A DNA stretch of 64,000 bases from Halopiger goleimassiliensis. Its GTDB lineage: Archaea > Halobacteriota > Halobacteria > Halobacteriales > Natrialbaceae. The notes under the pieces are model-generated. The model was not told where the DNA came from. It searched no databases and was given only the letters and a program-made list of their open reading frames with translations. The stretch lies in the NCBI RefSeq assembly GCF_000455345.1, contig NZ_HG315691.1:692217-756216 (forward strand). The letters are read 5' to 3'. Each line of letters begins with the position of its first letter. The first letter of the stretch is position 1. Below, in pieces: positions 5,888 to 64,000 of the stretch. A program made the position numbers and the translations under genes.

Positions 5888-7345
5888 ATGAGCGACATCG
5901 AGGGCGTTTACGAGGATCTCGAGGCCGACGTCTCTCTCGAGGAGTTTCGCGAGGCCGTCGAGGCGAAAGTCGAGCAGATGGGGGGACTCGCGGACGAGGA
6001 GACGGCGGCGATGCTCGTCGCTCACGAGATCGGCGAGAGTGAGGTCGGCGGCGTCGCCGACATCGAACCCGGGATGGAGGAGGCGAAGTTCGTCGCGAAG
6101 GTGATCTCGATCGGCGAGATGCGAACGTTCGAACGCGACGGCGAGGACGAGGACGGCCGCGTCGTCAACGTCGAGGTCGCCGACGAGACCGGCTCCGTTC
6201 GCGCTGCCTTCTGGGACGACCACGCCGAGGCCGCTATCGAGGAACTCGAGGAGGGCCAGGTGCTCCGGATCGCCGGCCGCCCGAAGGAGGGGTTCTCGGG
6301 CGTCGAAGTGAGCGTCGACGACGTCGAACCGGACGAGGACACCGAGATCGACGTCACGGTCTCGGACACCCACCGCGTCGAGGACCTCTCGCTCGGCCTC
6401 TCGAACGTCAACCTCGTCGGACAGGTGCTCGACACCGGCAGCGTCCGCACCTTCGACCGGGACGACGGCTCCGAAGGTCGGGTCTCGAACCTCGCGCTGG
6501 GCGACCAGACCGGCCGCGTCCGAGTGACGCTGTGGGACGAACAGGCGGACCTGGCCGAGGAGCTCGAGGTCGGTACGACCGTCGAGGTCGTCGACGGTTA
6601 CGTCAAGGAACGCGACGGCGACCTCGAACTTCACGTCGGCAACCGCGGCACCGTCGAGGAGGTCGACGAGGAGGTCGAGTACGTCCCCGAGAGCACGCCG
6701 ATCGAGGAGGTCGAGATCGGCCAGACGGTCGACATCGCGGGCGTCGTTCGCTCGGCGGACCCGAAGCGGACCTTCGACCGCGACGACGGCTCCGAGGGGC
6801 AGGTCCGTAACATCCGCGTGCAGGACGCCACCGACGACATCCGGGTCGCGCTGTGGGGCGAGAAGGCCGACATCGACGTCGGCCCCGGCGACGAACTCGC
6901 GCTGGGCGACGTCGAGATCCAGGACGGCTGGCAGGACGACCTCGAGGCCTCCGCTGGCTGGCAGTCGACGATCACCGTCCTCGAGTCCGACTCCGAGGGC
7001 GCTGCGGGCGAGGACGGCGACGCCGTCGAGGAGAACACCGGATTGTCGGCGTTCGCCGACGAGGACGACGGGACGGACGCGTCGGATGGAGCGGCCGACG
7101 CCGGGTCCGCCGCGGCCGATTCGACGGCGGACGCGGGTGCTGCCGATCCCGGGTCGGACGAACCGGCAGACGGCGAGGAGATCGAGTTCACCGGCGTCGT
7201 CGTGCAGGCGGGCGATCCGGTCGTGCTGGACGACGGCGAAACGACGATGAGCGTCGCGACGGAAGCCGACGTGGGTCTCGGCGAGGAGGTAACCGCCCGA
7301 GGGGTCGTCCGCGACGGCCGTCTCGAGGCCAACGACGTGTTCTGA
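5888..7345 (+). CDS. rpa2: Replication protein A, multi-OB ssDNA-binding protein
   Basis: Single-stranded DNA-binding protein of replication and repair, 485 residues from the chosen ATG. A helical N-terminus (~1-55) is followed by three OB folds (about 60-150, 165-255 and 275-370), each carrying a variant of RTF(D/E)RD(D)G..G.V and a (A/T)(F/L)WD/G signature. An acidic Ala/Asp-rich linker and a short C-terminal OB-like strand set follow. The start was chosen at MSDIEGVYEDL because upstream in-frame sequence lacks family character. It lies before the histone and deacetylase genes, an order seen in other haloarchaea, where the multi-OB paralogue is called Rpa2. Confidence 0.88.
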   Translation: MSDIEGVYEDLEADVSLEEFREAVEAKVEQMGGLADEETAAMLVAHEIGESEVGGVADIEPGMEEAKFVAKVISIGEMRTFERDGEDEDGRVVNVEVADETGSVRAAFWDDHAEAAIEELEEGQVLRIAGRPKEGFSGVEVSVDDVEPDEDTEIDVTVSDTHRVEDLSLGLSNVNLVGQVLDTGSVRTFDRDDGSEGRVSNLALGDQTGRVRVTLWDEQADLAEELEVGTTVEVVDGYVKERDGDLELHVGNRGTVEEVDEEVEYVPESTPIEEVEIGQTVDIAGVVRSADPKRTFDRDDGSEGQVRNIRVQDATDDIRVALWGEKADIDVGPGDELALGDVEIQDGWQDDLEASAGWQSTITVLESDSEGAAGEDGDAVEENTGLSAFADEDDGTDASDGAADAGSAAADSTADAGAADPGSDEPADGEEIEFTGVVVQAGDPVVLDDGETTMSVATEADVGLGEEVTARGVVRDGRLEANDVF

Positions 7346-62110: not shown

Positions 62111-62186
62111 GGGCACGTAGCTCAGTCCGGATTAGAGCGTCGGACTTCTAATCCGACGGTCGTGGGTTCAAATCCCATCGTGCCCG
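62111..62186 (+). tRNA. tRNA-Arg (anticodon TCT)
   Basis: Acceptor GGGCACG pairs with CGTGCCC; the anticodon arm TCGGA-CTTCTAA-TCCGA gives anticodon TCT (Arg, AGA codons). The T-arm GTGGGTTCAAATCCCAT is canonical; discriminator G; no encoded CCA and no intron. Its 3' end is duplicated downstream, marking it as an integration site. Confidence 0.96.
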
Positions 62187-62289
62187 TGCAACGAGTCGCG
62201 GAGTGACGAGTGAACCGGCACGTGGGATTTGAAGTAGACGGCGGCGAGCGATAGCGAGCCGACGGCGTAGTTCAAATCCCATCGTGCCC
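62166..62289 (+). repeat. Duplicated tRNA-Arg(TCT) 3' end (att-like sites)
   Basis: A 20-base direct repeat covering the T-loop to acceptor end occurs at 62166-62185 (inside the tRNA) and again at 62270-62289. Between them an inverted partial copy lies at 62217-62233 (GGCACGTGGGATTTGAA) and a palindromic GGCGAGCG/CGAGCC stretch. This is the footprint expected from tyrosine-recombinase elements that target tRNA genes; GC content falls sharply to the right. Confidence 0.75.
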
Positions 62290-62886
62290 CCTCAGAACCG
62301 TTTTCAGAGACGCTATTTCGAATCGTGCTACCATCTCGAGGGTAGCCTAGGACGCCGACCGACTCGAGGAGCGCCTGGTCAACCTCGGTGAAATCGTTAC
62401 CGAGCAGGGCCGCGGCTTCGCGATCGCGCCCCGGTACCGCTGCCTGGAGTAGTGGCAACACTATCGTTCTGGCTTATTTCACTATTTTGTGGTTGCGTTT
62501 TCCAGAATACCGGGGATCCTGGCGGGTGCGGTCGGGGCCGATACTCGATAACGCTGCGTTCGGCCCCAGCCGCACTCATCCCGGAATCCGATCCGACGGG
62601 TCAAATTCCGGGTTAGTGGGTAAGGCCAAAGCTCCAAATCAACTGCCCGCCTTCGTACCGCTGCCATTCGATTGCGTGGATTCTACCTTTATATCGGAAC
62701 ACTAAGATAATGTGAAATGAAACATAATGGCAAGAGAACGTGAGAGGTGTGGTACTACAGACAGGTGGGAGAGAACTTCGGCTAAGGCCAAACACACAAA
62801 TTAACGGCTACGCCACTGTGCTGTTGACAATAGCTACGATAATATTTTCCATCATTCAGTAGTGCGTCCCATCTCTGGTAGTGTAT
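62290..62886. other. AT-richer intergenic stretch with gene fragment
   Basis: No intact gene. 62351-62452 reads in one frame as DADRLEERLVNLGEIVTEQG followed by RGFAIAPRYRCLE and a stop, with strong GC3 bias: the tail of a lost gene, family unknown. An inverted repeat CCCGGAAT/ATTCCGGG occurs at 62580-62587 and 62605-62612. Two TAAGGCCAAA motifs lie at 62621 and 62783. The right half is markedly AT-rich. Confidence 0.5.
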
Positions 62887-63123
62887 CTACTCATTGGTGC
62901 GTTCGGCTTGTAGAATGAGCTTGCCACGCTCAGTAAGCGAGTACACCTTCCGCCGGTCTTGCTCTTCGACCTCGACATAGCCGGCCTCTTCCAGTTCCTG
63001 TAGGTGTTCATACACTGTAGGTCCTTGTCTACCGAGGTCCTTGGCGAGTGCGTAGCCGTGGCGGGGCTCTTCATCAAGTAGAGTGAGTATCCTACGCTTC
63101 GCGTCCGTCAGCGTTAGCCCCAT
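62887..63123 (-). CDS. PadR-like winged-helix repressor
   Basis: A 78-residue protein that is just a winged helix with PadR-type wing (LTDAKRRILTLLDEEPRHGYALAKDLGRQGPTVYEHLQELEEAGYVEVEE), lacking the usual C-terminal dimerisation domain. A minus-strand TATA-like CGCTTATC lies about 29 nt before its start. It is divergent from the methyltransferase-like gene, with a palindromic operator between them, so it probably represses both. Codon use is less GC-biased than in the rest of the window. Confidence 0.82.
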   Translation of the reverse strand: MGLTLTDAKRRILTLLDEEPRHGYALAKDLGRQGPTVYEHLQELEEAGYVEVEEQDRRKVYSLTERGKLILQAERTNE

Positions 63124-63158
63124 CTTGTCTTGGGGTTTGCATGGGTCGTTGATAAGCG

Positions 63159-63182
63159 ATGCATACCCGAATGTCTATGCAT
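63159..63182. promoter_or_regulatory. Palindromic operator between padR-like and methyltransferase-like genes
   Basis: ATGCATA-N10-TATGCAT is a perfect 7-bp inverted repeat. The right arm doubles as the likely TATA box for the rightward gene (about 29 nt before ATG 63209); the left arm adjoins the leftward TATA-like element. Probable binding site of the PadR-like protein. Confidence 0.6.
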
Positions 63183-63208
63183 AGGTGACCGACTACTTAT
63201 TAGTGAAG

Positions 63209-63934
63209 ATGGTGCAACAGTCAAGTACCCAAAGTGGGAAACGAGAGATCAATCAGATGTACCTCGTTGATCTCGGACGGGTGGTGTCGAACGCCGACAT
63301 CCAAGAAGATGTCCTAAACGCGACAGAGGGGATCTGGAGTGCTATCTACGATCGCATGGACCCGACCGAGACATTGTGGGTCGTCGCGCCGAACGCGTAC
63401 CGAGACGGCCGGATGTGGCCTGTTGCAATGGCGGTAGCTGATTACGCCAGAGAAGAATCAGGGCTCTCCCTGAAGAACACGATAACAGTCCACCGGTGGG
63501 AGGACCGTGGCGGCGATATGGAATCAGCATATGATGAAATTCTGTTCTTCGTAAAAGACAAACGGAAGTATCAGTTCTACAAGGACGATATTCGGGTGGC
63601 ACACGTATACGAAGGGAACGAATGGGGAGGCGAACGTGAGGAAGGTAACAGCGCCTACCACGACACTAAGGTTCGCCGATACAATCCAGACGGCAAGGAC
63701 CCGGGCAACGTCTGGCTAGATGAAGACCGCACGCAGACAGATAACCAAGAGGTCGACGAGGTAGAGACAATACCACTTCGCGAGGCGCTCCGCCGGTGTA
63801 TTCTCGTGGGCTCCGATGAAGGCGAAACCATCTATACACTCTGGACAGATGATATTGAAGGTGTTTTCTCCGAGGAGGAACGCGTTGCTGAACCACTTGA
63901 TGCGACCGCGCTACGTGAAGAGGTGAACGAATAG
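63209..63934 (+). CDS. DNA-methyltransferase-like protein lacking catalytic motifs
   Basis: A ~241-residue protein. Segments resemble the beta-class N4/N6 DNA methyltransferase scaffold: ETLWVVAPNAYRDGRMWPVAMAVADYAREESG, then NTITVHRWEDR, YDEILFFVKDKRKYQFYKDDIRVAHVY, KDPGNVW and PLREALRRCILVGSDEGETIY. The positions where DPPY and D-P-F-x-G-x-G should stand read MYLVDLGRV and YTLWTDD, so S-adenosylmethionine binding and catalysis are probably lost. ATG 63209 fits the TATA spacing; a GTG at 63185 is the alternative. The next gene starts at once (TAGATG). Function unknown; defence-related role is inference. Confidence 0.6.
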   Translation: MVQQSSTQSGKREINQMYLVDLGRVVSNADIQEDVLNATEGIWSAIYDRMDPTETLWVVAPNAYRDGRMWPVAMAVADYAREESGLSLKNTITVHRWEDRGGDMESAYDEILFFVKDKRKYQFYKDDIRVAHVYEGNEWGGEREEGNSAYHDTKVRRYNPDGKDPGNVWLDEDRTQTDNQEVDEVETIPLREALRRCILVGSDEGETIYTLWTDDIEGVFSEEERVAEPLDATALREEVNE

Positions 63935-64000
63935 ATGGTTGACCTTGACGCAATCGACGACCTCGAAATTCACTGGAGTACGAGCGAAGAGATGACCGAG
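63935..64000 (+). CDS. Start of a further gene, cut by the window edge
   Basis: Immediately after the methyltransferase-like stop codon an ATG opens MVDLDAIDDLEIHWSTSEEM and runs off the window after 22 codons. Zero-base spacing indicates the same operon. Too short to assign. Confidence 0.55.
   Translation, partial: MVDLDAIDDLEIHWSTSEEMTE

Follow-up and report, generated by a model that had tools for sequence, protein, structure and literature searches.

The right edge of the 64-kb stretch of DNA analysed here (C2:692217-756216 of a 3.9-Mb haloarchaeal genome, G000; hereafter the window) cuts through an operon, and only the first half of a four-gene cassette, P-A-B-C, lies inside it. Reading the region 60 kb further to the right revealed the full gene order beyond the tRNA-Arg gene, i.e., P on the minus strand, followed by A on the plus strand, B, and C (Table 1). 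An earlier note on this DNA had described a divergent pair formed by a PadR-like gene and a methyltransferase (MTase)-like gene, and this arrangement was recovered with the palindrome CTATGCATAG in between at 63175-63184. Its statement that another gene directly follows the MTase-like gene was likewise correct, since gene B starts at the base right after the stop of gene A (TAGATG), and the remainder of the operon that it expected to the right was found there as genes B and C, the latter starting 160 bp past gene B. An in-frame GTG further upstream, at 63185, would make gene A 249 aa. The reported drop in GC content and change in codon bias are both measurable: GC falls from ~0.60-0.70 to 0.50-0.55 from ~62500 onward, and GC3 amounts to 0.55-0.65 for the cassette genes as opposed to 0.8-0.9 for the host genes on either side. 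Host-like sequence, with a GC3 of ~0.9, returns with an AAT/C45-type gene (PF03417) at L004:6661. Two small paralogous CPxC...CGC zinc-finger-like ORFs of ~55-60 aa (L004:4359-4526 and 6320-6502) are located between the cassette and this gene.

Table 1. Features at the right end of the window and just beyond it. Coordinates are positions in the window unless a contig is named.
Feature	Position	Strand	Evidence or remark
tRNA-Arg(TCT), host gene, left edge of the insertion	62111..62186	+	Rfam matches tRNA only
tRNA trailer, strong hairpin, ancestral, outside the inserted element	62187..62290	+	Fold z=-4.9; present at the G130 empty site
DUF7845 gene remnant, last ~47 codons	62334..62455	+	66% over 47 aa, E=1.7e-10
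Gene P, 78-aa PadR-like winged-helix (wHTH) protein, proposed R-M controller	62887..63123	-	PF03551 E=1.9e-13; conserved in 14 loci
Candidate operator TCTATGCATAGG (consensus CCTATGCATAGG), P-A gap	63174..63185	.	Recurrence across loci
Gene A, putative non-catalytic beta-class MTase paralogue, 240 aa	63212..63934	+	GTG start; PF01555 E=9.9e-10
Gene B, first 22 codons inside the window	63935..64000	+	Whole gene 260 aa, L004:1852-2634
Gene C, 292 aa, putative REase, beyond the window	C2:757094-757972		Follows gene B

In the relative G130 the tRNA-Arg gene and its trailer are followed by the AAT gene ~170 bp on, which represents an empty site at the position where the source genome carries ~6.4 kb. 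The insertion is thus absent at the orthologous tRNA of a relative, as would be expected of a tRNA-targeted integrative element, and, judged from this comparison, the insertion at tRNA-Arg(TCT) is real. Nor is the gene order the same in all relatives, as an ancestral locus would have it, since G130 has an empty site and G047 and G373 carry different cargo there. The stretch from tRNA-Arg(TCT) to the AAT/C45 gene (L004:210-6600 in the source genome) is an insertion hot spot: besides the cassette of the source genome, it hosts a cluster resembling cytochrome-biogenesis genes in G373 (L103) and other genes in G047 (L102), and it measures ~0.8 kb in G116.

The tRNA 3' end, GTTCAAATCCCATCGTGCCC, is indeed repeated exactly over 20 bases, as had been noticed previously, at 62166-62185 and 62270-62289, with a spacing of 104 bp, and no such repeat arose in 100 shuffles. 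The second copy forms the 3' arm of the trailer hairpin, the 5' arm being its complement, and the tRNA itself is the only Rfam match in this region. The two copies had been interpreted as att sites of an integrated element. However, both are already present at the empty site of G130 and, consequently, the repeat predates the insertion and does not represent its att sites. An unbiased census of the source genome, for which all 42 tRNA genes were located with Rfam, leads to the same rejection. Copies of a tRNA's own tail (a match of at least 15 out of 18 positions to its 3' end, at most 250 bp downstream) occur at 22 of the 42 tRNA genes (9 perfect) versus 11 of 1714 mismatched tRNA/flank pairings, whereas a control genome from within the phylum has them at 1 out of 24 tRNAs. 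Mostly they lie ~80-165 bp downstream (one at +217), and the usual layout is tRNA, hairpin 1, and hairpin 2, with the tail copy as 3' arm and its complement as 5' arm of the latter (e.g., C1:831916-831990, C1:2103673-2103747, and C2:660259-660331; L159, L155, and L164). Other genera and families of haloarchaea have own-tail copies too, and our literature search found no description of this feature. They may be scars of serial integration, a mini-element, or an RNA structure of the trailer. This genome-wide feature explains the 20-base repeat, the first clue at this locus, separately from the cassette.

The earlier proposal, i.e., that the window ends with the left end of a tRNA-integrated element possessing an integrase and using the 20-base repeats as att sites, is, given these findings on the repeat, very unlikely. 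Neither a tyrosine integrase gene nor a third, distal copy of the repeat, both of which had been expected, was found within 60 kb to the right, the nearest PF00589 gene on the contig being ~480 kb away (C2:273211), and most other cassettes are situated away from tRNAs. On the other hand, the distance to a tRNA is at most 1 kb for four of the 14 cassettes, where ~0.4 would be expected (rough Poisson P ~6e-4), the DUF7845 remnant is common to a second tRNA-borne island in the source genome, and the cassette of Halorubrum laminariae stands next to a duplicated 240-bp unit from the tail of tRNA-Leu. A tRNA-linked vehicle, other than the one first drawn, is plausible, and a tRNA-proximal insertion by an element since stripped of its integrase is possible. 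With respect to the second island, the DNA at 62334-62654 matches C2:257878-258205 at 78%, and an intact DUF7845 paralogue (PF25227, E=1e-104) is found at C2:256 kb near tRNA-Pro. This island (L007:4087-8283, C2:256086-260282), ~2.4 kb from tRNA-Pro(CGG) (L007:1605-1678), comprises the DUF7845 gene and then an AT-rich gene for an AAA_15 ATPase, which is AriA-like (PADLOC E=5e-27) and stands next to a 192-aa partner with no family match, i.e., a PARIS-like defence pair whose left flank is shared with the cassette locus. Near the copy that has a broken A plus B (L055), there is likewise a DUF7845-like protein (25% identity). The duplicated unit of Halorubrum laminariae (L040:5023-5604) consists of the tRNA-Leu 3' half and trailer (92%) just before the cassette, and it looks as if integration happened there more than once.

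Gene A was detected in 15 and gene C in 14 of 394 haloarchaeal genomes, and A co-occurs with C in all carrier genomes but one. The intact P-A-B-C cassette is present in 13 of the 394 genomes, with one extra locus in Halorubrum laminariae (L040), i.e., 14 loci in total, and its carriers span at least five families, with Halopiger djelfimassiliensis and Halorubrum tebenquichense among them; the exceptions are a genome with A (containing a stop) and B but no C (G186) and one with a decayed copy (G365). The distances between loci correlate across the four genes (Mantel r 0.74-0.93, reached by 0 of 2000 permutations; r=0.91 for A-B and r=0.93 for A-C). Furthermore, the gene tree mixes host families: the f7 copy clusters with f1 copies of the Natrialbaceae type, one f1 copy (L054) is placed among those of f2, f8, and f4, and two Halorubrum types are far apart. 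The concordant distances and this mixing of host families indicate that one cassette has spread horizontally. Together, the empty site in G130 and the patchy, tree-incongruent distribution bear out the original suggestion that this DNA is foreign. In Haloquadratum walsbyi C23, one of the 13, the cassette resides on plasmid PL100, which is readily lost in culture (PMC3119063), and this runs counter to the prediction of a strongly addictive restriction-modification (R-M) system. Homologues of A outside the haloarchaea were not convincingly found in the whole phylum (G534 being a weak generic match), no relatives of A or C were present among viral contigs, and the phages searched held generic methylases only.

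Gene B (PF01555, E=1.3e-48) contains TSPPYW (motif IV) followed by DPFFGSGTT (motif I), and both SPPY and DPF.GSGTT are present in all 15 B orthologues. With these motifs intact, as in the stand-alone MTase of a Type II R-M system, it is, by its sequence, an intact beta-class amino-methyltransferase. Relatives of known structure are TTHA0409, MboIIA, CcrM, and an N4-cytosine enzyme from rotifers, and its nearest plasmid relatives include M.Pac25I (31% identity). SPPY is typical of m4C enzymes, yet it is not decisive, and m6A enzymes are included among the nearest solved relatives of B. The methylated base is probably N4-cytosine, as SPPY suggests.

Gene A also exceeds the gathering score for PF01555 and matches gene B in a profile-profile comparison (probability 93.7%, E=1.9e-7). 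The [DNS]PP[YFW] motif IV and the GSG-type SAM loop (motif I, GxG), however, are absent in all 14 orthologues, so that the description of a dead methyltransferase, lacking DPPY and the SAM loop, holds across the family, and gene A, while still a PF01555 homologue, does not belong with the active beta-class amino-methyltransferases. The missing catalytic motifs could be taken to mean that A is a decaying duplicate of B, but this is hardly credible. Purifying selection on A is strong and close to that on B and C: its dN/dS is 0.07-0.18 (where dS is measurable), compared to 0.05-0.08 for B and 0.04-0.06 for C. It also possesses a conserved block of its own (YEGNEWGG...SAYHD...RYN..GKDPGNVW), kept in loci that are only ~55% identical, and its frame is open in all 14 intact cassettes. 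A decaying pseudogene is rejected by such dN/dS values of ~0.1.

A always precedes B, and in nearly all loci its stop overlaps or abuts the start of B (TGATG, TAGATG, TAAATG, or an overlap of a few bases), as would be expected for equimolar partners. The fact that A lacks the motifs in all copies and is nevertheless under selection, coupled to B, and co-occurring with C suggests a heterodimeric methylase, in which B would flip the base and methylate it, and A would supply DNA recognition and the dimer interface. Translational coupling and analogy suggest such a heterodimer of an active and a dead subunit, which we regard as reasonably likely. Alternatively, A could be a free-standing DNA reader that acts, e.g., as a repressor or in sensing unmethylated sites and happens to be co-translated with B, which would itself work alone as a homodimer. 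It is true that B has every motif that single-chain beta-class enzymes need and that A is more divergent among loci than B (46-91% vs. 61-97% identity). Still, the stop-start coupling, the shared ancestry, and the near-constant association of A, B, and C point to a complex, and the role of regulator is already filled by P; a free-standing reader seems, therefore, unlikely. A fused A-B chain (TAG read as Q) gave an AlphaFold model with a pLDDT of 48.8, and the fold matches of this model (RsrI, MboIIA, and TTHA0409) are assignable to neither A nor B.

Gene C, annotated as "hypothetical protein" on the Haloquadratum plasmid, has no family match in Pfam, NCBIfam, or PADLOC, and no sequence relative of it was found in the PDB. 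All 14 intact loci link it to the MTase and preserve the motif ERIDF-x(13-14)-[ML]D[VI]KGGEGQSIGH, with a D-x(13-14)-DxK core of the PD-(D/E)XK kind. Its AlphaFold model is of moderate quality (pLDDT 72), and the fold matches are weak, none reaching E<=0.001, although the top ones (YaeQ, Hjc, AvaII, and RecU-type proteins) are all PD-(D/E)XK folds. With the motif kept, but with no family match and weak fold matches, C is a probable PD-(D/E)XK-type nuclease. One could also envisage that A and B modify DNA while C is no restriction nuclease, the cassette being an epigenetic or other defence module. The lack of family matches and PDB relatives and the weakness of the fold matches fit this idea, whereas the ID-x(13-14)-DxK motif in 14 out of 14 loci, the top-ranking fold matches that include PD-(D/E)XK proteins, and the methylase next door do not, and we consider it distinctly unlikely. 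C would be the cognate PD-(D/E)XK endonuclease of the proposed A-B methylase.

The assignment of P to the PadR family, made previously for a PadR-like repressor, stood up: its score against PF03551 (50.7 bits) is above the gathering score of 27. The best matches of P are PadR/TrmB wHTH models, with no XRE model among the matches listed, and P does not show the XRE/HTH_3 fold of C-protein regulators. The palindrome CCTATGCATAGG or a close variant (at most three mismatches) occurs in the P-A gap of all 14 loci and in the B-C gap of 13, in the source genome as a second copy upstream of gene C (L004:2736-2747), a distribution that fits control by P. In most loci it ends ~26 bp before the start of A, where an archaeal TATA/BRE would sit, while in the P and C promoters it lies ~18 bp upstream of a TATA-like TTAT box. 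P may thus bind the palindrome and, where this overlaps the promoter of A, repress the methylase (A-B), and it possibly activates or tunes P and C, the palindrome being upstream of their TATA-like boxes. The outcome would be methylase first and nuclease later, as with bacterial C proteins. Whether P represses or activates is read here from promoter geometry, and we put forward this promoter logic tentatively, at somewhat less than even odds.

Across the 14 loci the conserved unit consists of P, A, B, and C only, and no helicase/ATPase, S subunit, or PglX-like gene belongs to it, which rules out Type I, Type III, and BREX systems. Taken together, P-A-B-C would represent a mobile haloarchaeal Type II R-M cassette with a heterodimer of an active and a dead MTase, a cognate nuclease, and control by P, to which we assign a probability of roughly 0.7 based on sequence comparisons; that it is an R-M system as such is highly probable. 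The suspicion that the first operon of the inserted DNA is of a defence type and employs a non-catalytic MTase fold is supported by the neighbouring genes B and C and by the motif-less A. To call the system unrecognised was too strong, since with genes B and C it is most probably a Type II R-M system, a known class, but the apparently obligate dead MTase partner is new. In our literature search, which did not extend to REBASE, no prokaryotic pair of a dead and an active beta-class MTase was found. The more specific reading, in which an active beta-class subunit is bound in an obligate heterodimer to a permanently dead one, the dead subunit sets the sequence specificity, and the pair is an independent DNA counterpart of METTL3-METTL14, has in our view a slightly better than even chance. 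If true, the pairing of an active and a dead MTase, familiar mainly from the m6A writers of eukaryotes, would have evolved in a mobile defence cassette of prokaryotes as well. With two proteins of 240-260 aa, the cassette offers a small system for testing the role of a dead methylase subunit, and it adds an unannotated candidate family of restriction nucleases as well as an R-M regulator from archaea whose candidate operator has been mapped.

The cassette shares with Type II R-M systems that have an m4C beta-class MTase a separate MTase (SPPY ... DPFxGSGTT), a separate putative PD-(D/E)XK REase, mobility, and a patchy distribution. It differs in that the active MTase is co-translated with an additional, apparently obligate dead paralogue, that the regulator is a PadR-like wHTH protein rather than an XRE C protein, and that gene C, within the libraries used, resembles no known REase in sequence. 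The MT-A70 heterodimers METTL3-METTL14 and MTA1-MTA9 likewise combine an active and a non-catalytic MTase fold, a pairing we infer for the cassette, and in MTA1c the catalytic site of MTA9 is dispensable (PMC9174199). The cassette, in contrast, would be an archaeal DNA R-M system of the PF01555 type with SPPY, and neither A nor B has an MT-A70 domain match in Pfam, so that the likeness is one of working only. In EcoP15I (Type III), DNA recognition falls to one Mod subunit and methylation to the other (PMC4490356), the same division of labour as proposed for A and B, although Mod2 consists of two identical chains whereas the cassette encodes its two chains in separate genes, one of them being permanently dead, and is without a helicase Res subunit. 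The precedents of EcoP15I and MTA1c make a division of labour between A and B reasonable. Finally, C-protein-controlled R-M systems also have a small HTH gene beside the R-M genes and a repeated palindrome before the promoter of their own gene or the methylase and before that of the nuclease, but in the cassette a PadR-like wHTH protein would act on archaeal promoters, a regulatory action that we infer.
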